Below, piece after piece: positions 3,347 through 18,757 of a DNA stretch of 37,104 nt. Each line of letters starts with the position of its first letter. The first letter of the stretch is position 1. Source of the stretch: Planctomycetota bacterium (GTDB lineage: Bacteria; Planctomycetota; Planctomycetia; Pirellulales; S012-138); assembly GCA_024279285.1 (NCBI GenBank), contig JAJRRR010000078.1:1-37104 (forward strand), written 5' to 3'. The notes beneath the pieces were generated by a model, which worked only from the letters and a program-made list of their open reading frames with translations, was not told the DNA's origin and searched no databases. The translations under genes and the position numbers were made by a program.

Positions 3347-3380
3347 AAAGCGAAGCTCCCGAGGGAGCTTCGCTTTTTTT
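3347..3380 (+). terminator. Rho-independent terminator downstream of the RHH-like gene
   Basis: Perfect 14-bp inverted repeat AAAGCGAAGCTCCC / GGGAGCTTCGCTTT (3347-3360 and 3363-3376) followed by a T run ending at 3380. Confidence 0.93.
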
Positions 3381-3542: not shown

Positions 3543-4859
3543 ATGGGCAGCGCAGGGAGTGTTTCCAAAGCTCGGGTACTGCGAGCCCGGATAACTTGTC
3601 CACATTGCTGGCATCAGTTTCCTCCTCAGGAAGTGCGTTGGATTGCCAGCCATCCGGAGCTGCGAGGAGACGAGCGGTTGGGCGAGGATGCCCCCAAACG
3701 GTTCCTCCCCACCCGGTTTGACAAAAACTGCCGCGCCTTGGATGCCAAAGGCCAGCCTTGCACCCAATTGGCCTGCCCCCGATGCCATCTGTTCATTCCT
3801 TGGGTTCTGTTGGAAGTCAAGCCGTTGTTGATTTCCATTTTGGGGGCTCCGGGATCGGGAAAGTCCTATTTTTTGGCCGCCTCGGTATGGCGACTGCGGC
3901 AGACCTTGCTGGAGCAGTTCCACTTGCAATTTCTGGACTCCGACCCACGCATCAATCAAGTGCTGTTAGATTACGAGGAGCGACTGTTTCTCAGTGCCCA
4001 TCCTGACGAACTTACCCTGCTCCCCAAAACCGAAACCAAAGGGCACCTTTACGAATCGGTGCGAATTGCCGGGGAACTGGTTTGGTATCCCAAGCCGTTT
4101 GTCTTTACCTTGCAACCGGCTCCTTCCCACCCCAACGCCCGTCACGCCGCACGGTTGACTCGGGCGATGTGCCTTTATGACAACGCTGGAGAACACTTTC
4201 TCCCTGGAGGGGATTCCCCAGAAAGCTCCAGCACTCAACACCTGAGCCATTCTCAAGCTTTGTTGTTTTTGTTTGATCCCACCCAGCATCCCCGTATTCG
4301 GCAACTGTGTTGCAGCAGCAGCAACGATCCCCAACTACACAAATACGGCTGGTCGCATCGGCAAGACTATGTGTTGAGTGAAGCCGCCAATCGGATTCGG
4401 TTGCACAGGGGATTGGGCCAGCGCGAAAAACTGCCCAAGCCTCTGGTCGTGGTGGTGACCAAGTTTGACGCTTGGAAATCCCTGGTGGAGATCGGGGAGC
4501 TGGAGCTGAGTCAAGTGGTGGTTCGCACGCGCAGTGGGATCAGCTATCTGGACCTGGTCCGTCTGGAAAGTACCTCCCGCGTTATTCGTCGCATGTTGGA
4601 GCGCTATGTGCCGGAACTTGTCGCCACATGTTGGGGAGTTTCGGATGATGTGATTTTTATCCCGGTCAGCTCTTTGGGAACTTCCCCCGAGGTGGTCGAC
4701 CAAGGAACTGGACCCATCTTGGCAGTGCGCCCCGGCAAGGTGCGTCCGGCGTGGGCTGAAGTGCCGTTTTTGTATGTGTTGCAGCGAACCCTCCCAGGGG
4801 TGATTCCCGTGCGTAAGCTCAACCCAAACTCTTCCCCCACTCAGGAGAAGACTCCGTGA
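3543..4859 (+). CDS. Zinc-ribbon P-loop GTPase (double-GTPase / TRAFAC-like, DO-GTPase2-type candidate)
   Basis: Cys pairs 'CPHCW...CPRCH'; Walker A 'GAPGSGKS'; switch II-like 'DNAGEHF'; NKxD-like 'VVVVTKFDAW'. Confidence 0.8.
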   Translation: MGSAGSVSKARVLRARITCPHCWHQFPPQEVRWIASHPELRGDERLGEDAPKRFLPTRFDKNCRALDAKGQPCTQLACPRCHLFIPWVLLEVKPLLISILGAPGSGKSYFLAASVWRLRQTLLEQFHLQFLDSDPRINQVLLDYEERLFLSAHPDELTLLPKTETKGHLYESVRIAGELVWYPKPFVFTLQPAPSHPNARHAARLTRAMCLYDNAGEHFLPGGDSPESSSTQHLSHSQALLFLFDPTQHPRIRQLCCSSSNDPQLHKYGWSHRQDYVLSEAANRIRLHRGLGQREKLPKPLVVVVTKFDAWKSLVEIGELELSQVVVRTRSGISYLDLVRLESTSRVIRRMLERYVPELVATCWGVSDDVIFIPVSSLGTSPEVVDQGTGPILAVRPGKVRPAWAEVPFLYVLQRTLPGVIPVRKLNPNSSPTQEKTP

Positions 4860-7468
4860 GCCTGGAACTGGTATATACTTCCGCTCCGCGAGGGCTCAAG
4901 CCTGGTTCGCGGGGCTTTTGCACCGTCTTGTGTACCCGCGGTATGCCCAGCAACCTAGTGGAGTTGCTGGAGTCCTTAAGTGGATATCGGCATCTGTTTC
5001 CGATTCATGACCCGCGGGCAGGACAAAATCCGGTCAACTATTGCCACTGGATCGTCAAAGTGGGAGGGAAGCGCTATCATGTGCTGTCGCGGATCGCCAA
5101 TGCGGGCAAAGACTATTCCGGGCGAAGCAACAAACTGGCTCACCATGTAGTGTTGGAACCTCAGGAGTGTCCCCCAGGGGGGCCGGCTTGGGTCCTGAAA
5201 GACCCTCGGTTCTGCCGCCGAAGCTGGACGGGGGAACCTCGCCAAGTGGCCCAGGGCCCTCGCCCCCGGACCGATCTCCCCCCACAAGCCCCCTGCCGTA
5301 CCTGGGAACAGGTAACCGGAGACGCAGGCTGGGCAGGCCAACTGGCGCAATGGACCGTTCAGGGGAAACTTCCCGTTTACATCATCGTCCCCCTGGGAGT
5401 GGATGTGTTGGATTTGGTTTGCGAAGCCATGAGCTTACTTCCCCCCACGAAGCGTTGGGAAGTCTCCTTCAGCACCTATTTCACCCAAGTGCCAGCCGGA
5501 ATCTCCTGCCTGTGGCGGTTTGTAGTTGAAGGTTCCCCAGAGGCGGACAAAGCACGGCGGGACTTTCGCCTGAATGTGTTGGACTTGTCCAGTCCGCTTT
5601 CTTCTCCTGCGGAGAGCCCTTGGGTTCATGCGGCCCGAACCGGCGAGCCAGTGGTAGATGCCCCACAACCAGCTTCAGCCCAGGTGGTTGATAGCCCCGC
5701 TCCTTTGGTTCCTGCCGCTTCCTCACCTTCTCCCGCCTCGCTGCCTCCAGTGCGCACTTCTGCCCAGGAATCCACCCGCGGGACTCCTTCTCCGCCAGAG
5801 CTGCCTCCCCGTGGAAGACGAAAGGTTTTCCAAAGACCTTTCTGGTCTGGGTGGTCCTTTGTGCTGGGAATGGTGGTGGGTGTGATTCTGGCAGCTCCCG
5901 CTACAGGGGTCCTCACCTGGTGGCTGCTAGGTTCCTCCGGCGGCGTAGTTCAAACCGCCTCTTCCGAGGAGAGCTCTTCCTCTTCAGCCAGCACGACGCA
6001 AGAGCCCCAGAACCCCAATCCCACCCCTGCCAACAATTCCTCCCAGAAACAACCCCATCGTCCTAACTTCCGGCAGTCCGGCAAAAATAAATCGCACCAG
6101 CAGAAATCAATGGCAAACTTTCCCTCTTCTGGACAATCGCAAACAAACAATCGCCCCGAGCGGCCTCAGAAAAAAAGCGGTGGCCCCACACATAAAGCAT
6201 CAAAACTGGCTGCCAAAGGGGGGAAGTCTTCGGCTTCGGCACACTCTCCCTCCGCTTCATCAGCATCTTCAGGAAATCAATCCCCGGGAGCTGATCGCTC
6301 CACAAAAAATTCCCCATCCACTTATGCCGAAGTGTTCCCGACTGTGCCCGAAGAACTTTTAACCGTCAGTTTCTGCGTTCCTTTGATTCTACCTTCCACC
6401 CGAAACACTTGGCAGCCCGTGCGAGTGTGGAAATCAAATCAGCCCCTGAAAATTCGTTCAGAATCTGTTTCCCTAGATATACTTTATGACCGTGAAGTTT
6501 CAAATGGAGAGTGGAAGATAGTGAAAAAGCAAAACACCTGGGTATTAAATCTGCAAACCACCGGACTACCAGATAGAATCGCTGAGTTTAGAGTGAAAGA
6601 TGGCCAACTGGAAATCAATTTGAAAACATCAAGAATTGAGCCTTTGAAAACTTGCATTCTTGTTGTGAAAGCATCCGTGGGAAAACAGTCTTTCAATCGG
6701 CGTTTTGCACTCGTTGTTCCCACAGAAAGCGATCCAATAGATGTGGTCGGCACTGGTAAAAAGTCTATTCCTTTGCCGATTGCGATTGGAAGTAGAAAAG
6801 GGTCACGGCTTTATGTTACCGTGAAGCTCTTTTCCGAAAACAAAAGCTACTTCTTGAAACGAAGGGGACCGGTTAGTCTGAAGAGTAATGATAAACTGAA
6901 GATTGAGCAAGATTCTTTGGTGGATATAGATACTAGCCAGGGATTGTTCCATTTTTGTTTCCTGAACGGAGGCGAGCCCCGTTCTAACTCGGTGTCCGTG
7001 GAATCCCTGCTGGCTATTCTAAGTGTAAAGGTACTCTGCCCGAGGCAGGAAAAAAAGGTGATTGTTTCCGTCGCGCCAAAAATATTTTTAGGAGAGTACC
7101 GGGAACTAGGTAACCAGCCAAGTGTGGAAGAGTTGAAAAATGCCCTGGTTTTTTTCCAGAAAATAAAGAAGTATAGATTCGAGGATATAGAAGGTGTAGT
7201 GAACGATATGGAGGTTCAGGTGAACAAAGCAATAAAAACCTTACAACATAGGAAAGATAAATCAAAAGCTAAAGCAACTAAGAACCAACAAGCAACTAAG
7301 AACCAATTGGAAGTAGAACGAGAAAAGTGGGATAAGGTCGGGATAAGAGTCAAAAATGCGCGTGAATTAATAAATCATATGAAAGACGGTAAAGTAAAAC
7401 TGAAAATCAAGGTGTATTTGCTAGTGGGCGATCAACGCATCCTCTTGCACAAGACAAAAGGCTTTTAG
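4856..7468 (+). CDS. GTPase-associated protein 1 (GAP1)-like membrane protein: conserved N-terminal domain, Pro/Ser/Thr-rich linkers, one TM, divergent C-terminal domain
   Basis: GTG start overlapping the upstream stop (GTGA). N-terminal 'LVYTSAPRGLKPGSRGFCTVLCTRGMP...LSGYRHLFP...VLSRIANAGKDYSGRSNKLAHHVVL' resembles GAP1 N-terminal domains as I recall them. TM 'WSFVLGMVVGVILAAPATGVLTWWLLG' at about 5850-5937. Confidence 0.75.
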   Translation: MSLELVYTSAPRGLKPGSRGFCTVLCTRGMPSNLVELLESLSGYRHLFPIHDPRAGQNPVNYCHWIVKVGGKRYHVLSRIANAGKDYSGRSNKLAHHVVLEPQECPPGGPAWVLKDPRFCRRSWTGEPRQVAQGPRPRTDLPPQAPCRTWEQVTGDAGWAGQLAQWTVQGKLPVYIIVPLGVDVLDLVCEAMSLLPPTKRWEVSFSTYFTQVPAGISCLWRFVVEGSPEADKARRDFRLNVLDLSSPLSSPAESPWVHAARTGEPVVDAPQPASAQVVDSPAPLVPAASSPSPASLPPVRTSAQESTRGTPSPPELPPRGRRKVFQRPFWSGWSFVLGMVVGVILAAPATGVLTWWLLGSSGGVVQTASSEESSSSSASTTQEPQNPNPTPANNSSQKQPHRPNFRQSGKNKSHQQKSMANFPSSGQSQTNNRPERPQKKSGGPTHKASKLAAKGGKSSASAHSPSASSASSGNQSPGADRSTKNSPSTYAEVFPTVPEELLTVSFCVPLILPSTRNTWQPVRVWKSNQPLKIRSESVSLDILYDREVSNGEWKIVKKQNTWVLNLQTTGLPDRIAEFRVKDGQLEINLKTSRIEPLKTCILVVKASVGKQSFNRRFALVVPTESDPIDVVGTGKKSIPLPIAIGSRKGSRLYVTVKLFSENKSYFLKRRGPVSLKSNDKLKIEQDSLVDIDTSQGLFHFCFLNGGEPRSNSVSVESLLAILSVKVLCPRQEKKVIVSVAPKIFLGEYRELGNQPSVEELKNALVFFQKIKKYRFEDIEGVVNDMEVQVNKAIKTLQHRKDKSKAKATKNQQATKNQLEVEREKWDKVGIRVKNARELINHMKDGKVKLKIKVYLLVGDQRILLHKTKGF
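7272..7307 (+). repeat. 18-bp in-frame tandem duplication within the GAP1-like gene
   Basis: AAGCAACTAAGAACCAAC followed directly by AAGCAACTAAGAACCAAT, encoding ATKNQQ-ATKNQL. Confidence 0.85.
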
Positions 7469-7484
7469 GTAGAGTGGCTGACCT

Positions 7485-10445
7485 ATGGATGAGCTTATTC
7501 AATGCATTGACTCCATCCGAGAACTGATCCTTTCTGCAGGCCATCGGGATGTGGCCACGATGGACCGGCTTAACCGCATTTATACCGATGCGGTTAAAAC
7601 GGTCAATCAACGATTGCGCAAATGTGAGCAATTGCTTCGCCAAGGCTTTTTGGCCGAAGCCCTGGAAGAATGTGATCGGGAGCCCCCTTTGCTGGATCTG
7701 GTCACCCTGTTGGACTTTCCGGAAGCGGCGGTTTGGTGCGACATGGTGGCGCACCAGGGCTTGCCCCGCCCCCCGGCTGTGCTGGTAGACATCGCTGCCG
7801 AACTCAACGATGCCTACTTGAAAGCTCAGTCCCTGGAAGAGTTGTTGGTGCGGTTCCGGTTGCTCAATTTGGCCCGCGCCCCTTTGAAAAACCGCTTGGC
7901 CGTACTGTGGCGCATCCGCGAACAAGACCCTCAAGGTGCCCACTGGGAAGAGGATGTCCGACAGTTTGAGCAAGCACGCCTGGAGGAAATGCAATCTGAG
8001 TTCCGGCGAGCTGTAAAAAATAAAGACCTGAATACGCTGGAACAATTAGAGGAAGAGCTCATCCAGGGCACCTGGATTTCAGAAATCCCAGAAAAACTTG
8101 TCCATCAAATCTCCCAGGCCGCTAGCCAATTGCGTGTCAATCAAGCCCGTGACGAACTGGAACAACTGGCCTATCAGCTCAGCGATGCGTTTTCAGCGTT
8201 TGATGTTCCTCGCGCAATGAGCTTGCGACAACGCTGGGACGCCTTAGCGCACCTGGTCCAGCTAGCCCCCGAAGACCCCATCTTCCAACTGGCTATGCCT
8301 GCCCTCCAATGGATTGACGAAGAGCGGAAAAAACAGCAACGATTTGAAGAACACCGCCGCTGGGTGGCCCACCTGGAAACTCTCCTGGATCAAGGTTGTC
8401 GGTCTTTAGAACATCTGCTTCAAGCAGTACGCCGAGCTTCAAGCTCGGAATGGTCATTGCCTTCGGAGCTTCAGGTGCGCCTGCAGCGCCATGTGCAATC
8501 TCTTCAACTGGCTCAAAGCCGCCGTCGCAAACTGTTCATCCTGTTTGTGTGTATGGTCATCGTTCTGGCCGCTGTGGGAAGTTTCTACTTGATCCGCCAT
8601 CAACTTCTTGCTCAGCGCGCAAAATCAGAAGAACAGATCCTCATCTCGTTGATAGAAAAGAATCTGTTGGACCAGGCGGAAGATCGGCTCCATAACCTCA
8701 GATCAGAAAATCCGGAAATCTATAATCTGCCTTCTATCCAAGGTATTCAAGCCGAATTGATAAGGCTGCGTAAAAAAGAAAAGCAGCGACTCGAGAGCAA
8801 AGCTCATCTCATTTCCCAAATAGAACAGATTCTCCTGGGGGCACCCTCGTGGAAGTCCTTGGAGCATGGATTTTCACTCGTGGAGGAAGCTGAAAAACTT
8901 TGCCGAAGTGACTCGGAAAAAGCACAGATCCTGGACCTGAAACGACAACTTCGCCAACAAGAATTAAAACTTCAAGAACAGGAAGATGAAAAATTCGAAG
9001 CAGAAGTCCAGGCACTCATAGCTCAAGGTGGAGCATTGGAGAAGAAAAATCTAGACGAGCTTCAGGCTCTTTTAAAGCAAGCTCAAGCGTTAAGGCAGCG
9101 CCCTCGGGTAAGCACCGAACTCAAGCTGCCAGGCTCTCGGCTTCACGCATTTATTAATCAGTTGGAGCAACAGATCAAACTGGCCAGACGAATTCAACGG
9201 CAACGAGTAGCGGTCCAGAACATCACTCTGGGTGTGGGCAATCCAACCCAATTCGCCAACGCCCTGCGGCAATATTGCCGCCAATTCCCCGATGAACAAC
9301 AAACTTCCGATATGCAGGAACTTTTGACATACCATGTTTCCACCTGGGAGTCTATTTATCTTTGGAATCAATTTGTTAAAAAATGGAACCGAACGGATGT
9401 GATCCTCATGCCCAAGCAAACGATCACCTTGCGCTTGATTGAGGTCAAAGAAATTCAACAACAAGTTGAACAGGCTCCCATACTCCAACTTCTCCTAAAC
9501 GATACCCGGTCCCGTGTGAAATACCTCCAAGTTGCCCTGAATCGCTTTCCACAAGGGGAGCCTCCGCTTGTTGATCAAATATTGAAAATCTGGTTTGAGT
9601 CCCCCCTGCTAAAGAATGCCTATATGGTCCAAACCAAAGATGGCAAACGATACTACTTGCCCGAAGAGCCCCAGATAAAGGGGAACCTTGTGTTCTTTCG
9701 GTATTGGGACAGTGTGTTGCTTCGTGTTGATAACAAAAGGGTACCATTGGAGATGATCAACAATCCTCGTCGGGGAAACGATTGGGACTGGTCCGCTCCG
9801 CAAGTTCAATATAGGCGATATGCGATTCGGACACTTCAGGAGGTTTCCTCACGAGGTTGGGAAGAAAGTTTTTTAGATTTGGTAGAAGCAGCCCGAAAAT
9901 CTTCCATGGACCCGGTGTTGATTCTCCGATTGATACGCGACCTGGTGGATTGGGGCACCCAGGGAAGTTCCATTCTGGCAGACTGCTCTTCCTGGAACCA
10001 GATGGCTCGTCAAATTCACGACTCCGAGCTGGACCTTTCTGTCAATTGGATTGACCCCGAAAACTCTCTGGGGCAAAAACAACGCCAACAGGCAAAGCAA
10101 CTGCTTTCCCAGTTTCCTCCGATGGGACCGATACGCGACGAGGTGAGATGGCAAATTCGCAAACTTCGCGCCCCCCTTGCTTGGTTTCAAGTCCAATGGA
10201 TTGGCTGGCTGATGTTTGATTCTCGACTGGGTTGGGTTGTCCATATCAAAAATCCAAATGCAAAATATCAAGGGACTTTGCTTGTTTTAAGAGGCCATCC
10301 TGGCGAAGCTCCCCAAGAGTGGGTGGAGCTGGGAACCATTCGCGGCACTCATGTGAAAATCCGCCAAAATCCTGAAGTCGTTTTTCTCAGTGGCTCTCCG
10401 GTTTTCCTCAAAGTGCCGTTGGTTTCTTCGGGAGAGACTCCATGA
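7485..10445 (+). CDS. Large coiled-coil, single-TM protein of unknown function with beta-rich C-terminus
   Basis: 986-aa ORF. Heptad-like helical N-terminal half, TM 'LFILFVCMVIVLAAVGSFYLI' (about 8530-8598), further coiled coil, then a beta-rich C-terminus. ATGA overlap with the next gene. Confidence 0.8.
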   Translation: MDELIQCIDSIRELILSAGHRDVATMDRLNRIYTDAVKTVNQRLRKCEQLLRQGFLAEALEECDREPPLLDLVTLLDFPEAAVWCDMVAHQGLPRPPAVLVDIAAELNDAYLKAQSLEELLVRFRLLNLARAPLKNRLAVLWRIREQDPQGAHWEEDVRQFEQARLEEMQSEFRRAVKNKDLNTLEQLEEELIQGTWISEIPEKLVHQISQAASQLRVNQARDELEQLAYQLSDAFSAFDVPRAMSLRQRWDALAHLVQLAPEDPIFQLAMPALQWIDEERKKQQRFEEHRRWVAHLETLLDQGCRSLEHLLQAVRRASSSEWSLPSELQVRLQRHVQSLQLAQSRRRKLFILFVCMVIVLAAVGSFYLIRHQLLAQRAKSEEQILISLIEKNLLDQAEDRLHNLRSENPEIYNLPSIQGIQAELIRLRKKEKQRLESKAHLISQIEQILLGAPSWKSLEHGFSLVEEAEKLCRSDSEKAQILDLKRQLRQQELKLQEQEDEKFEAEVQALIAQGGALEKKNLDELQALLKQAQALRQRPRVSTELKLPGSRLHAFINQLEQQIKLARRIQRQRVAVQNITLGVGNPTQFANALRQYCRQFPDEQQTSDMQELLTYHVSTWESIYLWNQFVKKWNRTDVILMPKQTITLRLIEVKEIQQQVEQAPILQLLLNDTRSRVKYLQVALNRFPQGEPPLVDQILKIWFESPLLKNAYMVQTKDGKRYYLPEEPQIKGNLVFFRYWDSVLLRVDNKRVPLEMINNPRRGNDWDWSAPQVQYRRYAIRTLQEVSSRGWEESFLDLVEAARKSSMDPVLILRLIRDLVDWGTQGSSILADCSSWNQMARQIHDSELDLSVNWIDPENSLGQKQRQQAKQLLSQFPPMGPIRDEVRWQIRKLRAPLAWFQVQWIGWLMFDSRLGWVVHIKNPNAKYQGTLLVLRGHPGEAPQEWVELGTIRGTHVKIRQNPEVVFLSGSPVFLKVPLVSSGETP

Positions 10446-11245
10446 GCGCTGCTGCGTCTGAATCCTTGTATTACATACGAGTGCGGGGCAAGGTGGAAGG
10501 TCCATACAATCTGCCCCAGGCCCAAGCTTTAGTGCGTCGGGGACGCCTAGGACGGCATCATGAAGTTTCTCAAGATCGTGTGAACTGGAAACGGGCTTCG
10601 GAGTTTCCTGAGTTGTTCGCCACCCCCATGCCGCGTCACCCTCAAAATGCCGCCGCTCCTCCCCCACCCGCTGAAAGCTCCGAAGTCCCCTCTGCCACAC
10701 CGCAAAACTGGTACTATGCTCAGGATGGCACCGAGCAAGGACCAGTTTCTTTGGAAGAGCTTCGCCAACTGCTTCATTCGGGAGCCTTAAACGCTGACAC
10801 TTTGGTTTGGACCGAAGGACTCTCTCAATGGACTCCCTGGTTGGAAGTGCCGGAGTTGAATCCGGCTCTTTCGGCTAAGCAGCCACCGCCAACTGCTGTG
10901 GTGGCTACCAGCCCATCTTCTGCCACACCTGCTGCACCGCCTGCCTCTATCTGCCCTCAGTCGGTTGCCAGTTTTGGCTTGAGCATCGCCTTCGTTTCGG
11001 CTTTAGGTGTAACCTGCGCACTGGTACTCTCCTTTTCAGAAAGAATCGCTTTGGCCATTTTAATAACTTCAGGGGCCGGCGGCATGTTCAGTGCGGTGCT
11101 TGGCTACAGCGCGTTGCATAACATTAAAAGGGGATCAATGTTTGGGTCCAAAATGGCTGTGGCCGGCATGGTGCTGGGAGCGTTGGGACTGGTGCTGAGC
11201 ACCGTGTGCCTCATTTTACTTAAGGACAGGCTTTTTCTGATATAA
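10442..11245 (+). CDS. Tandem GYF_2 domain membrane protein with DUF4190-like multi-TM C-terminus
   Basis: Two GYF_2-like copies: 'LYYIRVRGKVEGPYNLPQAQALVRRGRLGRHHEV...W' and 'NWYYAQDGTEQGPVSLEELRQLLHSGALNADTLVWTEGLSQW'. TM-rich C-terminus 'ASFGLSIAFVSALGVTCALVLSF...MAVAGMVLGALGLVLSTVCLIL'. Confidence 0.85.
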   Translation: MSAAASESLYYIRVRGKVEGPYNLPQAQALVRRGRLGRHHEVSQDRVNWKRASEFPELFATPMPRHPQNAAAPPPPAESSEVPSATPQNWYYAQDGTEQGPVSLEELRQLLHSGALNADTLVWTEGLSQWTPWLEVPELNPALSAKQPPPTAVVATSPSSATPAAPPASICPQSVASFGLSIAFVSALGVTCALVLSFSERIALAILITSGAGGMFSAVLGYSALHNIKRGSMFGSKMAVAGMVLGALGLVLSTVCLILLKDRLFLI

Positions 11246-11247
11246 TC

Positions 11248-12108
11248 ATGAATGAAGCCCCAAATGCCCACGAAGTTCCGCTGGATTGGACCCGGCTGGA
11301 TTGGGAACAAAAGCTCGGGTTTCCCGGGGGAAAGTTCACCCATGTGAACAACGCGTTGACTTTTTTGTCTGGAGCTGTGTTGACAGTGTTGTTTTACGGT
11401 GCGTTAAGCTTTTCTCCCCCCTCCTGGTGGAAGGAGATGTTTACCGCTCGGGGAGCCATCCCTTACTTTATAGTCTTCTTTTCTTCCTGGTCTTTGGCCA
11501 TTTTACTTTTTAAATGGCAAAAGCTGCGAGTCCAACGAAGTGCCCTGCAATACCTGGTTGTTCCCGAAGACCCCGACTTTGTTCTTTCCCCCCTGACCGT
11601 AGAACAAGTCACTGAAAAAATCTATGCAACGGTTGATGACCCGAAAAACTTTATCCTGTTCAATCGAATTATGATCGCCTTGGCTAATCTGAAGAACATT
11701 GGAAGGGTAAGTGATGTTGATGAAATCCTGCGATCTCAAGCCGACCAGGATGAGCAATCTGTTGATAACAGCTACAGCTTGATCAGTGGGTTCGTTTGGG
11801 CTATTCCGGTGTTGGGATTCATAGGGACTGTGTTGGGTCTTTCCCAGGCGATAGGGGGATTTAGCGCCGTGTTGAGCGCTGCGGACCAAATGTCTCAAAT
11901 TAAAGATTCGCTACGAGGTGTAACGGCAGGATTGGCCACGGCATTTGAGACCACTTTGCAAGGACTCGTGGCTGCGCTGGCAATCAACATGATGGCCACA
12001 TTTTTGAAGAAAAACGAATATCAGTTTCTGGAGCAATGTTCCGAATATTGTACCCGTTTTATTGTCAACAAACTGAAGGTCACTATTGCCGATCCGGGTG
12101 AACCCTAG
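11248..12108 (+). CDS. MotA/TolQ/ExbB-like proton channel (stator) protein
   Basis: 'SLISGFVWAIPVLGFIGTVLGLSQAIGGFSAVL...LRGVTAGLATAFETTLQGLVAALAINMMATFLKK' is a characteristic MotA/ExbB core. Confidence 0.88.
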   Translation: MNEAPNAHEVPLDWTRLDWEQKLGFPGGKFTHVNNALTFLSGAVLTVLFYGALSFSPPSWWKEMFTARGAIPYFIVFFSSWSLAILLFKWQKLRVQRSALQYLVVPEDPDFVLSPLTVEQVTEKIYATVDDPKNFILFNRIMIALANLKNIGRVSDVDEILRSQADQDEQSVDNSYSLISGFVWAIPVLGFIGTVLGLSQAIGGFSAVLSAADQMSQIKDSLRGVTAGLATAFETTLQGLVAALAINMMATFLKKNEYQFLEQCSEYCTRFIVNKLKVTIADPGEP

Positions 12109-12131
12109 CAGAAACTTATTGGAGAGCGAAA

Positions 12132-13655
12132 ATGTCCAGGTGGTTCATCAAGCAGCAAGGGGTGACGCGCGGGCCCTTTACTTTGGAGGAACTTAAGTTC
12201 CTGGCCAGGCGAGGCGTTCTGCGTCGGGGCAACGCAGTGCGCCCAGAAGGTTCTCAAAACTGGGAGCCAGCAGAAAACATCCCGGCTTTAGCTCCGTTGC
12301 TTCAGGCAAGTCCAGCTAAAAATGCTGAAAGCGCCCAGGTGGAACCACCTGTCCAGGAAAAATTCGCTCGGGAAGTTTCTCCACCAGAACCTTCTTCGGT
12401 CGGGGTATTAGGAGTATTGGCTACAGGGGTGGTTGTGGTTGCCAGTACGATTCTGCTTGCAGGAATCACGCTTGGTCTGGTAGGAGTTGTAAGCTCTTCT
12501 TTTCCGATAAACAGTATTATTGCTTCTATATGGCTTGTTGCTTTTCTGATAATTATCTTATCTGCTGCCTTTGGTGCATCCGAGGAATCTCAACAAAAGC
12601 GTAAGCTGTGCCTTGCCGCGTCAGCCGGGGTATCTGTTTATGCAGCATTGTTTTTGACCGGGGCCCGACTCTGGTTTGGTGCTCAAGCGATACCAGTTTC
12701 TCGGACAGGTTTTGAGAACGCTCGAATAGCTTCTCTTTCTGAAGATGCTGCGCCCGTGCAAGACAGCCCTAGGCAAAGTGCCGAACAAGCGTCTCCTCCG
12801 TCTCCTGCTTCGCCTGATGGTTCACCTCATCAATCTCAAATTGTTCCTGGCGGTGAAGGTTCCAAGCAAGGCGTATCCCGATCTTCACCAGAAAATCAAG
12901 AGAAAAAGGAGGCAGGTTTGCAGTTTCAAAAGTTTCGGCAAGAGGGGCTGGAAAGGAAACAGCTTCGGTTAACAGCCCATACTTTCGTCTGGCGTGACCC
13001 CATGGGAAGGGATTTAAGTGGTGGGAGTGCGGGCGCTCTTTTTCGCCAGGGAGGGAGTTTGATCCTTATAACCAACCGGCATGTAGTGACCAACGGAGAC
13101 GATGTCAATGCAATTGCAGGTACTCTTCTTCTCCAATTGCGCCCGAAAATTATATTTCCTTCCCAAAAAGTTAAGCGTGTGCGGCGCGTTAAACTTGCCC
13201 GGAATAAGGTGGACTTGGCGTTGGTTGAAGTGGATGTCCAGGGATTGAAAGAAGGAGTGGATTATGAATTGCTCCCGTTTCGCAAGCCCGTTCAGAAGCA
13301 ATTAGATGTAGGTGATCCGGTTGTTGCCGTGGGGACTCCTTTGGATTCGGGGCTGTCGGGTACTCACACTTTCGGACGTATCAGTGCGTTGCGCCCGCAG
13401 TTTGTCGTTGCTAATGGTGCGGATTGTATTCAAATAGATGCTGCAATTAATCCTGGAAACAGCGGAGGGCCTTTGTTTGTGGAAAAGGGGACAAAGTATT
13501 TCTGGATAGGCGTGAACACTTTTAGCATCAAAAAAGATGTAGCGGAGAATATTAACTTTGCTATAAGTGCGGAAGCTGCTGTTGAGGTAACTTATACTGA
13601 TTGGTTTCCTGCAACCCCCCGCGGAATTATTAATGCAATAAGGGAAGCACAATGA
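12132..13655 (+). CDS. GYF_2 domain, multi-TM, trypsin-like (HtrA/S1-type) serine protease
   Basis: N-terminal 'RWFIKQQGVTRGPFTLEELKFLARRGVLRRGNAVRPEGSQNWEPA'; about 3 TMs; triad candidates 'TNRHVV', 'NKVDLALVEV', 'INPGNSGGPL'. Confidence 0.9.
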   Translation: MSRWFIKQQGVTRGPFTLEELKFLARRGVLRRGNAVRPEGSQNWEPAENIPALAPLLQASPAKNAESAQVEPPVQEKFAREVSPPEPSSVGVLGVLATGVVVVASTILLAGITLGLVGVVSSSFPINSIIASIWLVAFLIIILSAAFGASEESQQKRKLCLAASAGVSVYAALFLTGARLWFGAQAIPVSRTGFENARIASLSEDAAPVQDSPRQSAEQASPPSPASPDGSPHQSQIVPGGEGSKQGVSRSSPENQEKKEAGLQFQKFRQEGLERKQLRLTAHTFVWRDPMGRDLSGGSAGALFRQGGSLILITNRHVVTNGDDVNAIAGTLLLQLRPKIIFPSQKVKRVRRVKLARNKVDLALVEVDVQGLKEGVDYELLPFRKPVQKQLDVGDPVVAVGTPLDSGLSGTHTFGRISALRPQFVVANGADCIQIDAAINPGNSGGPLFVEKGTKYFWIGVNTFSIKKDVAENINFAISAEAAVEVTYTDWFPATPRGIINAIREAQ

Positions 13656-14812
13656 GTGCTGCTCGTGCAGAAAAGTGGTATTTTCGGTTAGATGGGAAAT
13701 TGCATGGCCCTGTTTCCTTGGAGGAGCTTCAATATTTGTGCTCTCAAGGGACAGTATCGGGCCAGACGCAGGTGCGTGCTTCAGGAACAGGTTGGCTTGC
13801 TGCTTCCCAGGTGCAACAATTGGTGCCGTTTTTGCAGCGGCGGGACGAAAAAAGAGAGCATGTAAGAAGTGTTCCTAAGGCTCCTGCGCGAAGATTCTCC
13901 CGGTCCGAGGAAAGGGAAAACTTTTGGCTTGCCCTGGGTGGTGCGGTGTTGGCTTTGCTTTTGTTGTTGCTCCTTTGTTTGTTCTTGTGGGGGCGGCCTG
14001 GTTCAGGGGGGCAAGGCGGGACCAATTTGGCAGGCAAGGGGCAGGGGGAGGTGTTTTCTCTGGGGCCGCGTCCTGGGCCCACGGCTGCCCCAGTGCCCCA
14101 ACCTGCCCAGGACCTTCAGGTCCGCTCCAGTAATGATCAAGACCATCACGCGCATGTATCCCCTGAGGAGCAAGAAAACGAAGCCTCTTCCAGCGGAGAT
14201 ATTCAGAGCGAATCGGATCCAAGTGCCATGATTGGTCCCGCGGAGCCTTCTGCCGAGCAAGCTCCGGCTCAAAGCCCTCCGCATGCACCCCAGTTTACCG
14301 TGGGAGCCTCTTTCTTTGGCTTGGAAGGAAAAGGAAACAAGTTCGTTTATGTTATTGATTGTTCCTCCAGTATGGCAGGAGTCCGGCTCCAACGAGCAAA
14401 AGAGGAACTGTTGAAGTCTATATACTCTCTTGATGATTTTCAGAAGTTCTATGTGATTTTCTACAATACGGATGCTTATCCTATGTTCTGGCCTGATCGG
14501 CTCATACATACTCTTCTTCCAGTTACCAAGAAAAACCTTGAAACAGTTACCCAATGGGTGGAAGCGTTTTGGAATCCGGGAGGAACAGATCCCTGGCCCG
14601 CTATGCAGATAGCGTTGTCTCTTGAGCCAGATACCATTTTCCTGCTCACCGATGGAGAGTTTGATCTGCAAGTGGCCGACCGAATCCGGCAAGCTAATCG
14701 TTCGGAGACGGTGATCCATACCATTGGATTAGGAAGTGCGATTGGCGAAGCGGTGTTAAGACGAATTGCGAAAGAAAACGGAGGTCAATTCCGTGCCGTT
14801 TCTATTCCATAG
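13652..14812 (+). CDS. GYF_2 domain, single-TM, von Willebrand factor type A domain protein
   Basis: N-terminal 'KWYFRLDGKLHGPVSLEELQYLCSQGTVSGQTQVRASGTGWLAA'; one TM; VWA with intact MIDAS-like motifs 'DCSSSM', 'GGTDPWPA', 'LLTDGEF'. Confidence 0.92.
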   Translation: MSAARAEKWYFRLDGKLHGPVSLEELQYLCSQGTVSGQTQVRASGTGWLAASQVQQLVPFLQRRDEKREHVRSVPKAPARRFSRSEERENFWLALGGAVLALLLLLLLCLFLWGRPGSGGQGGTNLAGKGQGEVFSLGPRPGPTAAPVPQPAQDLQVRSSNDQDHHAHVSPEEQENEASSSGDIQSESDPSAMIGPAEPSAEQAPAQSPPHAPQFTVGASFFGLEGKGNKFVYVIDCSSSMAGVRLQRAKEELLKSIYSLDDFQKFYVIFYNTDAYPMFWPDRLIHTLLPVTKKNLETVTQWVEAFWNPGGTDPWPAMQIALSLEPDTIFLLTDGEFDLQVADRIRQANRSETVIHTIGLGSAIGEAVLRRIAKENGGQFRAVSIP

Positions 14813-14824
14813 ACAGGTGAACAC

Positions 14825-15604
14825 ATGCCCAAAAGATCGTCCTCACCGATGAGCTTATTTGCTTTTCAGGACATCGTAACGGCTGTGACAGGCATTATGA
14901 TATTGTTGACCCTGTTATTATCCTTGGAGATCGTGCACAAGGTGGAAGGCACATCTGGGCAGACCTCAGATGTGTACAGGCAATTGCTGGAGCAAAAGCG
15001 AGAGCTGGAAAGTCGCTTGCAGAGTTTGCAGTCGCAGCTTCGGCGCAGCTCGGAACGAAACCCTAAGCCCCAATCTCCTCCAACTTTCTCCAAGTTGCAA
15101 AGAGAAATTGCCTTGTTGGAACAGCGCATTAAAAGCTACCGCCAACAACTTGCTTTTTTTCAGAAAACTTATCAGTCTCAACGACAGGTGCTGGAGCCCA
15201 AGATCGCAAAAGATGAAAAATATTTAGATCAACAGCTTAGTCAACTGAAAGAAATCCAGCGAAAGATTCGGGACTTGCAGGGCCGGATTATTTATCAGAT
15301 AGAGAGGAAATTCTCTCAGACTCCATGGTTGGTCCAGGTTGCTGAAGGGCGGATTATGGTTGCACCGATGCGGAAAAAGACGCAACCCCAGGTCTTTTCC
15401 ACCGTGGAGCAGTTCATCCAATGGGTGGATCGGCACCGGGATCCCAATGCGGATTATTTTCTGGTAGTGATCAAACCCAAGGGAGTTCAGGTTTATCGTC
15501 ACCTGCGCGAAGAACTTCAAAAGCGAAATTTTAAGATGGGCATAGATTTAATTCCGGAAGATAAGGATGCTATCAGTTTGCAAACGGGAGCTGAAGGACC
15601 ATGA
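14825..15604 (+). CDS. MotB/ExbD-like single-TM coiled-coil protein, paralog A
   Basis: 'SLFAFQDIVTAVTGIMILLTLLLSLEIV' has Asp16 at the TM start, then a coiled coil, then a C-terminal domain similar to that of the following gene. ATGA overlap with the next gene. Confidence 0.7.
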   Translation: MPKRSSSPMSLFAFQDIVTAVTGIMILLTLLLSLEIVHKVEGTSGQTSDVYRQLLEQKRELESRLQSLQSQLRRSSERNPKPQSPPTFSKLQREIALLEQRIKSYRQQLAFFQKTYQSQRQVLEPKIAKDEKYLDQQLSQLKEIQRKIRDLQGRIIYQIERKFSQTPWLVQVAEGRIMVAPMRKKTQPQVFSTVEQFIQWVDRHRDPNADYFLVVIKPKGVQVYRHLREELQKRNFKMGIDLIPEDKDAISLQTGAEGP

Positions 15605-16500
15605 GTCGCAAGGGCTCGCCTGCCGATAGCACGGATTTGTTCCTGGATGCCGTGTGCAATACTTTCGGCAGTATCGTGTTTCTGGCGATTCTGGTGGTTT
15701 TGTTGATCGGTCATCGGGTGCGTACTACGGAATCTCAATCGCGATCCTCTCCAACTCAAGTTCAAATCGTTCAGCTTCGCAATGAGATTCAAGTTTTACA
15801 GTCCCAGATTCGTCGGCTGCAACGGGTGCTTGCTGAAGACGATTTGACCAAGAAAACCCCGACGAGTGATCCTGTTTTGCAACAGCTAATCCGGCAGCGT
15901 GATGAGCTCAGGCAAGTTCACGATCGGTTGAAAGATCAGATTGCGCAGGTTCGTGATCAACTTAAGCAGCTTCGGCATACTTCGGAGAGCCTGCGGACCC
16001 AAATAGCTCAAGTCCATGAGGAGCTTCGTCAGGCTCGGCAAAAGCTAAGTCAAGAGGTTGAAAAAGCCAGGCGGAGTTGGGGATTGCCTCAACTGCAGTA
16101 CAGCAATCTTCGGGAGGCGGCATTTATGATCCGGAACAACACGCTCTACGCGGTTCATCGGCCCGGCAGAACTTCCAACCTTAAATATGAAAGCTCCTTG
16201 AGACTTTCAAACGAATGTGTTCGTCGAACATCGGGCAATGTCGTTTATCTTGAACCCGTGCCAGGTCAAGGAATCAAAATAACAGGTGATCTTCAGTCAC
16301 TTCAAGCGGTGAAGAAAAAGTTTAAGGGGTTTAACCCTCAGACTGAACATTTTACATTTTTCGTCTGGGCAGATTCTTTTCAACACTGGCAAAAAGTGCG
16401 CGAGGTGGTGGAGGAGTTGGGATTCCACTATGCATTGTTTCCCATGCTTCCTGAGGACAAAGTTTCCGTGGGCCGAAGTGGTCCACGATTGGTGCAGTAG
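15601..16500 (+). CDS. MotB/ExbD-like single-TM coiled-coil protein, paralog B
   Basis: 'DLFLDAVCNTFGSIVFLAILVVLLIG' has Asp16 at the TM start, then a coiled coil, then a C-terminal domain ending 'LGFHYALFPMLPEDKVSV'. Confidence 0.7.
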   Translation: MSRKGSPADSTDLFLDAVCNTFGSIVFLAILVVLLIGHRVRTTESQSRSSPTQVQIVQLRNEIQVLQSQIRRLQRVLAEDDLTKKTPTSDPVLQQLIRQRDELRQVHDRLKDQIAQVRDQLKQLRHTSESLRTQIAQVHEELRQARQKLSQEVEKARRSWGLPQLQYSNLREAAFMIRNNTLYAVHRPGRTSNLKYESSLRLSNECVRRTSGNVVYLEPVPGQGIKITGDLQSLQAVKKKFKGFNPQTEHFTFFVWADSFQHWQKVREVVEELGFHYALFPMLPEDKVSVGRSGPRLVQ

Positions 16501-16558: not shown

Positions 16559-18757
16559 CTACACGGACAGGAGTTCGGCAATTTCTTCCACGGCAGGATT
16601 TTCCGGGATCGTGGGAAGGATTTCCTCCTCCAGGTGCTCAAAAACTTGATCCCGAATGTGCCGGTTCAGGTCCGGCTGAAAGGACTCAAAGGAAGATGCC
16701 ATTCCAGCGTTTTCTTGAGGTAAGGGTTTTGAGATTTGTCTCAGCAGAGGGGGAGTTTCTACTTCTGGGGTTTGAGGTTCTTCTTCTGCGGTGTGGGAAG
16801 CCAGCAAGGCCCAGGGAAACGCCGCCGAGGAGTTGGCATCTGTCGCCGCAATTGGCCCTGCCAGCAGCAGTCGGCGGGTCAAATCCCCCGTGGGAATTAC
16901 ATTCCCAGGCAAAACATGCATCCCCTGAATATCATGAGGAGCAAAGCCCAAGGGAGTGAGATTCAACAGAGCCGTGACCAGGTTGGTGGTGGTTCGGAAA
17001 AGCAGCAAATCCTCGTTTTGGGCGTTGAGGCCACCGTAAGTGTATCGTCCGGCTACGGAAAACCCGTATTTGGTGCCACTGGTGTCAATCCAGAGGGCAT
17101 TGAGATTGTTTTGAAATCCGTTCAGTCCCAATGTGGCTCCGTCTTGAAGGAGGGTCCAAGAGCCTTGGGTATCTCCCCAGCCCATAGTGGAAGGCGTAAA
17201 CTGGAGCAGGTCCGCGTTATCAAAAATTTGCACTCCTCCCGACCCATCGGGCAAAGTGGCCACCCCTTGGGTGGAAATGACCAGATCTCCCGAGGGGAGG
17301 AACGCCAAGCCGTCTATGTTTTCTTCAGGACCAAACAGTCCTACATCGCTACCGTCGAAAAACCATTCCCAAGTGCCTTGGGTGGTGCGTCCCAGCTTGG
17401 TCGGGTTGAACTTGATGATGTCGTTGAGTCCCACGACCAAGGGGCCGTAGATAGAGTCCACGAGTCCCTTGTTGGCAAGGGAGAGGTAAAGGTTGCCGTC
17501 GTTATCAATAGTAAAGGCTTGGATCGTTTCTCCGGCCGAGGCGTCCAATCCGACATCGCTTCCATCAAAATAAACTTCCACGGCTTGGAACTGGCCTTGA
17601 TCGTCCAGCACTACGGCCAGAATGTCGGCCCCATCATAAGCCACCAAGGTGCCATCGCTCATGGTCATCACCCCAGGACCACCCGGGGCAACCAAGTAAG
17701 AGGTGTAGGTAGGCTGAGGCGGTGGGGGGCCTTGGCCCCGCATGTCGTTGATCCACTGCACATAGTTGCTCACCCGAATGTCAAACCCCAATTCCCCAAA
17801 GGTGCAATTGGTCACTTCGTCAATGTCGGGACCATTGGCGTCGTTGGTCAACTCGTCGTAGCTGATGGCAAAGGAGAAGATTCCGGCTACATAGAGCTGG
17901 CCTCCACTTTCAATGAGCATGGGGCTGCCTTGGTCTCCCAGGAAGCAAGGGAAGGCTTCGTCGGTGATGGGATCCACCCCGGTGTCGTCCACGCCCAACA
18001 ACGCTCCGGCGGCGTCGTTGTCCTGGTTGCCATTGTCAAAGTCGAACAGGAGCATGCGGTCGTTGGGGATGGGATTGCCAGGCAGCAGGGCGTTGAAGTC
18101 TTCGGCTTTGGCATCGTAGCGGTTTCGGCCGTAGATTTTTCGGGTGGGATCGGAGATTCGGGTGTCGTTTCCGCCTACTCCGTAGGCCCCAAAGCCCACA
18201 CGATAGCCCTCCTGCCCCACCTCGTCGGTGTTTTCGTAAAGCGGATAGCCTTCCACGCCGGGCTCCGTCACCCGTTGGGGCAAAGCCAGCACGGCCAGGT
18301 CCGCTCCGCTGAGCACACCACTGCCGTCGGCTTTGATCCCTTGCCAGTCGGGATGAATGGCAATGCGCGTGGGATCCACCTGGCGATAAATGGACAGTCC
18401 ATCCGGGTGATAGATCCACACCTCCACTTCGCGCACGATGTTGTTGCCGTCCAGGTCTGTGGCACATTGGGCTGCAAACAGGATGTGCTTTTTGTCGTCC
18501 AGCAATACCCCAGTGCAAATGGACTCACTGTAATCTTGGTAGGTGATCCACAAGGCCACCACACCGGTGAATTGATCAGGGTCTGCCAGATGGAAAGCCG
18601 GATTGTCGTAGGTGATCATTCTGGGTTCAATGTCGCCTGCGGCAGCAGCGGCGTCCAACAGACATCGTGATTCTAGAGCTTCCAGAGCCAAGGGACGAGA
18701 GAAGCGATTGCGCATACTCTTACCGACCCGTCCTTTCCAAAAACCAAGCCAAGACAT
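16559..18757 (-). CDS. Secreted trypsin-fold protein, probably catalytically inactive, with repeat-containing C-terminal region
   Basis: N-terminal 'LEALESRCLLDA' resembles the planctomycete LEPR motif. Trypsin-like 'CTGVLLDDKKHILFAAQCATD' and 'CFLGDQGSPMLI'. Repeated 'FDGSDVGL' segments in the C-terminal half. Confidence 0.8.
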   Translation of the reverse strand: MSWLGFWKGRVGKSMRNRFSRPLALEALESRCLLDAAAAAGDIEPRMITYDNPAFHLADPDQFTGVVALWITYQDYSESICTGVLLDDKKHILFAAQCATDLDGNNIVREVEVWIYHPDGLSIYRQVDPTRIAIHPDWQGIKADGSGVLSGADLAVLALPQRVTEPGVEGYPLYENTDEVGQEGYRVGFGAYGVGGNDTRISDPTRKIYGRNRYDAKAEDFNALLPGNPIPNDRMLLFDFDNGNQDNDAAGALLGVDDTGVDPITDEAFPCFLGDQGSPMLIESGGQLYVAGIFSFAISYDELTNDANGPDIDEVTNCTFGELGFDIRVSNYVQWINDMRGQGPPPPQPTYTSYLVAPGGPGVMTMSDGTLVAYDGADILAVVLDDQGQFQAVEVYFDGSDVGLDASAGETIQAFTIDNDGNLYLSLANKGLVDSIYGPLVVGLNDIIKFNPTKLGRTTQGTWEWFFDGSDVGLFGPEENIDGLAFLPSGDLVISTQGVATLPDGSGGVQIFDNADLLQFTPSTMGWGDTQGSWTLLQDGATLGLNGFQNNLNALWIDTSGTKYGFSVAGRYTYGGLNAQNEDLLLFRTTTNLVTALLNLTPLGFAPHDIQGMHVLPGNVIPTGDLTRRLLLAGPIAATDANSSAAFPWALLASHTAEEEPQTPEVETPPLLRQISKPLPQENAGMASSFESFQPDLNRHIRDQVFEHLEEEILPTIPENPAVEEIAELLSV

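Follow-up and report, generated by a model that had tools for sequence, protein, structure and literature searches.

The locus analysed here raises the question of whether two consecutive genes, each encoding a protein with a single transmembrane (TM) segment and an Asp residue at its entrance, supply the moving part of a membrane motor, and what such a motor would be doing beside a GTPase. The window, that is, the whole stretch of 37,104 nucleotides from a Planctomycetota bacterium, was examined together with homologous loci. The two proteins are referred to here as axle 1 and axle 2.

Organization of the gene cluster

The axle genes were the final two of a cluster of nine genes (3543-16500), all on the + strand, with intergenic spacings of -4, 16, -4, 2, 23, -4, 12, and -4 nt. 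A strong terminator-like hairpin was detected at 3347-3376, 5' of the operon, and a promoter scan gave no excess over the shuffled expectation. The first gene (3543-4859) encoded a DO-GTPase2 (PF19993, 1e-8), in which CxxC pairs resembling a zinc ribbon were present and the GTPase motifs were intact (GAPGSGKS at 101, DNAG at 213, and TKFD at 306), followed by an 870-aa GAP1-N2/GAP1-M protein (4856-7468; PF20013, 7e-27; PF20014, 4e-14). The third product was a conserved 986-aa protein (7485-10445), seen in 71 loci, with a single TM preceded by RRRK; it probably has an N-in orientation with a periplasmic part of about 600 aa, and contained no known domain, nothing scoring above the Pfam cut-off. 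Next came an adaptor-like protein with two GYF_2 domains and three TMs (10442-11245; PF14237, 5e-31), which also matched the GltJ model NF033761 weakly (2.6e-10), and a 286-aa pore subunit of the MotA/ExbB/TolQ fold (11248-12108; PF01618, 48.2 bits against a cut-off of 22.9). Two genes in a variable slot, encoding a protein with GYF, TMs, and a trypsin/HtrA-like protease (12132-13655; PF13365, PF14237) and one with GYF, TM, and vWA (13652-14812; PF13768, PF14237), preceded axle 1 (14825-15604, 259 aa) and axle 2 (15601-16500, 299 aa), whose ORFs share an overlap of 4 nt.

The combination of a DO-GTPase with GAP1-N2 defines one type of predicted GTPase-centric conflict systems, the planctomycete versions of which have GYF domains fused to trypsin or to a TM-rich region (Kaur et al. 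2020, PMC7159879). Both the DO-GTPase and GAP1-N2 adjacency (PF19993, PF20013, PF20014) and the planctomycete GYF-trypsin component (PF14237 with PF13365) were present in the window operon. By its domain content, the operon belongs to the GAP1-N2 GTPase-centric systems, which are predicted conflict systems. It shares with the published systems the DO-GTPase and GAP1-N2 core, the planctomycete GYF-trypsin or GYF-TM proteins, and the variable membrane-linked components (PMC7159879). The FNIII component of the published systems gave no match in a domain search of this operon; such repeats are fast-evolving, and no fold has been assigned to the 986-aa protein. A putative motor is present here and none is named there, the words MotA, ExbB, MotB, and proton being absent from the text of Kaur et al. 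2020 (PMC7159879).

Two further features were observed in the window. A classical ExbB gene and, after it, a tandem pair of ExbD genes (965-1405 and about 1440-1844), each of the pair with the Asp of a TPMID motif, were located at 78-1844; this set is like the published 'tolQ + heterologous tolR pair' of the PVC group and distinct from the axle finding. A large trypsin-domain protein, with paralogues in same-genus genomes, was encoded at 16559-18757 on the - strand, convergent to the operon.

Conserved Asp residue and paralogy of the axle proteins

Each axle protein had one strong N-terminal TM (residues 16-34 in axle 1 and 18-36 in axle 2). The AlphaFold single-chain models were confident (pLDDT 88.9 and 85.5, respectively) and consisted, past the TM, of long helices and then an alpha/beta C-domain, agreeing with the long coiled coils expected in the first-pass annotation. 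The Asp codons were located exactly as that annotation had placed them, at 14870-14872 in axle 1 (in the motif FQD) and at 15646-15648 in axle 2 (in LLDT.CNTFGG). The annotation had also proposed an acidic residue at the TM entrance and had made its reading dependent on conservation of this Asp; the residue proved to be near-invariant. Asp was found in 92 of 93 loci for axle 1, with Ser in L093, and in 82 of 83 loci for axle 2, with Ser in L069, where the sequence after it appears frame-shifted. The non-redundant alignments retained Asp in 66/67 axle 1 and 55/55 axle 2 sequences. The homologues were mostly 17-32% identical to the window's axles and the mean column identity of the alignments was just 21-26%; D16 ranked tied second among 246 scorable columns in axle 1 and tied first among 288 in axle 2. 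At the level of the alignments, the conservation of the Asp is a real signal, beyond chance. The consensus motifs were SLFSFQDIITSV.GI for axle 1 and LELLLDTICNTFGGI for axle 2. The earlier statement that Asp occupies exactly residue 16 in both proteins was true in the window, but the number was coincidental, as it varied in the homologues and was mostly 17-19; the conserved feature is the position of the Asp relative to the TM, not the residue number.

Profile-profile comparison of axle 1 with axle 2 gave a probability of 91% where the TM ends were aligned (controls <=7%) and of 97% where the C-domains were, and a tighter 34-residue block compared directly gave 15% only. On these profiles, axle 1 and axle 2 are true paralogues, at the TM end as well as at the C-terminal end, which bears out the relationship and the similar C-terminal domains proposed earlier.

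Pore subunit and relationship of the axles to known families

In the 11248-12108 protein, P187, G190, G193, T194, V195, G197, T235, and T236 were invariant among 17 sequences including classical ExbB, and these residues show the Thr ring that lines the pore to be intact. The equivalent of the axle Asp in ZorAB is packed against a ring made of Ser/Thr (PMC11890865). The MotA_ExbB domain above cut-off and the location of the axle genes downstream supported the earlier idea that the axles are partners of this product.

Searches of the axles against Pfam, NCBIfam, and PADLOC returned coiled-coil noise only and no family match. The PDB profile search detected coiled coils only for axle 1 and no match for the MotA alignment. 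The axle TM profiles scored at or below controls against those of ExbD and MotB, in a comparison where the ExbD and MotB profiles matched each other at 25-49%. The C-domain of axle 2 matched the ExbD C-domain at 54.7% (controls <=1.2%), whereas axle 1 reached 3% against it; Foldseek against PDB gave no match below 0.001 for either axle model, with TolR (5by4) appearing among non-specific alpha/beta matches at non-significant E values of 0.02 and 0.28 (rank 21 and rank 7, respectively). A TolR/ExbD-like C-domain in the axles is only hinted at. An OmpA-like peptidoglycan-binding domain, as in MotB and ZorB, was not matched in the axles by domain searches, consistent with the earlier remark that no such motif was visible. 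In their position and topology, their Asp, and their partner, the axles resemble ExbD/MotB, but sequence comparison did not place them in the ExbD/TolR or MotB families; the term 'MotB-like' is accordingly kept as a working analogy, but not as a statement of TM sequence relationship to MotB or ExbD, none of which was detected.

The axle TMs without a detectable ExbD/MotB relationship, and the fold search of PDB without a match below 0.001, would suit a reading in which the locus encodes no motor: the paralogues would act as tethers by their coiled coils, next to a MotA-like channel under regulation, and the Asp would help the helices to pack. Such tethers seem very unlikely to us, given that the TM-entrance Asp is among the most conserved positions of diverging proteins and stands beside a subunit with an intact Thr ring.

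Distribution of homologous loci

A genome scan with the MotA alignment yielded 80 named loci, and a second scan covered 395 genomes of the phylum, in which the MotA type was called at E <= about 2e-64. About 90 homologous loci were found in Planctomycetota, Verrucomicrobiota, Lentisphaerota, and Desulfobacterota, with a recurring core order of GTPase-GAP1-986aa-(GYF)-MotA-axle1-axle2; Botrimarina colliarenosi (L056) is a carrier that has been cultured. Axle 1 directly followed MotA in 56 of 72 loci, and axle 1 and axle 2 were adjacent on the same strand in 59 of 66. Upstream sequence of 9 kb or more was available for 36 named loci, of which 31 contained GAP1, 32 the 986-aa protein, and 27 the GTPase. 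The interval between MotA and axle 1 varied, holding no gene, GYF-trypsin, GYF-vWA, vWA, GYF with a terpene-cyclase-like toroid, or unknown TM proteins. Two loci (L050 and L102) had axle 1 with no recognisable axle 2. The second scan detected the MotA type in 20 of the 395 genomes, the other matches being more distant and many of them in the sister group. GAP1-N2 was located 4-8 kb upstream on the same strand in 14 of these 20 genomes and on another contig in two, and was not found in four. Tandem GAP1-N2 genes, about 4.2-4.3 kb apart, were observed upstream of the motor genes in three genomes (G441, G238, and G407).

Axle 1 was absent from G001-G004, the four genomes searched from the same genus (two) and from elsewhere in the family (two), indicating that the system is accessory. 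An empty-site comparison with the same-genus genomes gave nothing, the upstream flank gene being in a different context there. The MotA tree grouped by phylum, with 6 changes against a minimum of 4 and one Syntrophus-titled MAG within Victivallales, and we make no firm claim of horizontal transfer of the system from it.

These results bear on the possibility that the same motor is an envelope force machine of the Tol-Pal or Agl-Glt type, switched by the GTPase and not itself acting as a conflict effector. The switching would be comparable to the way in which MglA controls gliding in Myxococcus, and the gliding motor AglRQS has a GYF partner, as does the window operon. AglRQS likewise consists of one TolQ/MotA-like and two MotB/TolR-like proteins (PMC9389320), the GYF protein of the window weakly matches the gliding protein GltJ, and PVC clusters of tolQ, a heterologous tolR pair, and vWA have been read as force transducers (PMC12204202). 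However, the occurrence described above is patchy, both among the four genomes of the same genus or family and in the phylum as a whole, the variable slot of GYF-protease, GYF-vWA, or GYF-cyclase-like proteins suits the constant-core/variable-effector pattern of Kaur et al., and an outer-membrane partner was not seen. A force machine of this kind is rather unlikely in our estimation.

Sister clade and the composition of the axle

The more distant MotA proteins of other planctomycetes were followed by a protein A' (SLFPFLSILACVIG...) without an acidic residue in its TM, and by B' (LDSLLDTMTNVVGIL...), which keeps the Asp. Profile orthology over the 34-residue block linked axle 1 to A' at 95% and axle 2 to B' at 96%; Pfam and NCBIfam had no name for A' or B'. 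The MotA-A'-B' trio was found at L135, L137, L021, L202-L203, and L212-L219, and no B' was seen beside A' at L136. B' was present in 12 of 12 genomes searched, being unlinked to A' in nine, all of one genus, and direct reading showed the Asp in 11 of the 13 B' loci, the remaining two not being recovered. An exception to the trio was L138, where a MotA-like gene was followed by just one axle, which had the Asp and, at its C-terminus, an Ig-like (He_PIG) domain (L138:6349-8570), constituting a one-axle variant.

As A' lacks a proton site, a homodimer of A' could carry no proton. The near-strict tandem pairing, together with the Asp-less A' beside the Asp-bearing B', indirectly favours a heterodimeric axle, which the sister clade suggests to be obligate; the A'/B' pair is the best available evidence for such a heterodimer. 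Two alternative homodimeric motors, in which one pentamer would take either two axle-1 or two axle-2 chains with two outputs, would agree with the homodimeric axles of the solved 5:2 motors (PMC9389320, PMC11890865), with AglQ and AglS, which are not known to pair with each other (PMC9389320), with the possession of an Asp by each axle, and with the presence of axle 1 alone in L050 and L102. We nevertheless regard this arrangement as unlikely in view of A', the sister-clade orthologue of axle 1 that has no Asp, and of the tandem axles at nearly all loci.

Proposed mechanism and comparison with known motors

A proton-driven pentamer:dimer motor built into a GAP1-N2 GTPase-centric system is, in our judgement, a reasonably probable reading of the locus. 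It is supported by the MotA_ExbB domain above cut-off and pore residues invariant even against classical ExbB, by the Asp conserved in both axles, and by the synteny, intact GTPase motifs, and tight gene spacing. It is weakened by the axle TMs without ExbD/MotB profile similarity above controls, by the loci without a recognisable axle 2 (L050, L102) or with Ser for the axle-1 Asp (L093), by the 4/20 MotA genomes without GAP1-N2, and by the FNIII component not being found. The observations themselves comprise the genes present, their synteny, the conserved Asp and Thr residues, the paralogy, and the topology predicted for single chains. The scheme that we infer from them extends to the complex and its 1:1 stoichiometry, to ion flow and rotation, to control by the GTPase, and to a conflict role. 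In it, five copies of the 11248-12108 protein would form the pore, with a single TM helix from each axle protein inside it as a 1:1 heterodimeric axle. The conserved Asp of each helix would become protonated, in alternation, against the Thr ring (T194, T235/T236), proton flow would turn the axle, and the paired coiled coils would pass the motion on to the periplasmic C-terminal domains. Engagement of the motor would be under the control of the DO-GTPase/GAP1 pair, acting together with the GYF adaptor and the 986-aa TM protein, and the GYF-tethered protease and vWA proteins of the variable slot would be likely outputs or accessories.

ZorAB of Zorya similarly joins a MotA-fold pentamer, which is putative in our case, with an Asp-bearing single-TM partner in a defence system (PMC11890865). 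Unlike Zorya, the present operon had no ZorC/D/E match, no long ZorA tail, and no OmpA-like domain, and carried two unlike axle genes; only the MotA core region matched a Zorya model (ZorA, <=27 bits), the axles and other genes showing no Zorya-specific match. AglRQS resembles the operon in its one MotA/TolQ-like and two MotB/TolR-like proteins (PMC9389320) and in its GTPase partner, whereas the axles here were unrecognisable as TolR/ExbD by sequence and the GTPase belongs to another family. The PVC tolQ clusters have in common with the operon a pair of unlike axle-type genes following a tolQ-like gene, a nearby vWA gene, and the same phyla, but are reported beside a TPR gene rather than DO-GTPase/GAP1 (PMC12204202), and the SHLS motif of their transducer was not visible in the TM of the window vWA protein. 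Heterologous tolR-like pairs after tolQ have already been published for the PVC group (PMC12204202), with AglQ/AglS as an older case (PMC9389320). What appears to be new is that a putative motor of this kind is linked to DO-GTPase/GAP1, that its axles belong to families without a name, and that the sister clade has an orthologue lacking the Asp.

The full proposal, a GTPase-switched rotary motor acting in biological conflict with an obligate heterodimeric axle, and with the sister-clade motor running on a single Asp, is put forward tentatively, as one that we would sooner doubt than assert. It would bring an ion-driven motor to the DO-GTPase/GAP1 systems. Motor-bearing conflict systems have so far been represented by Zorya, and the loci of Planctomycetota, Verrucomicrobiota, and Desulfobacterota would, if the proposal is true, be a second and separate route. 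The single-Asp motor of the sister clade would in that case be unforeseen by the present model of 5:2 motors, in which two Asps alternate, and heteromeric axles with two Asps and with one would be natural variants for asking whether 5:2 motors need both Asps.
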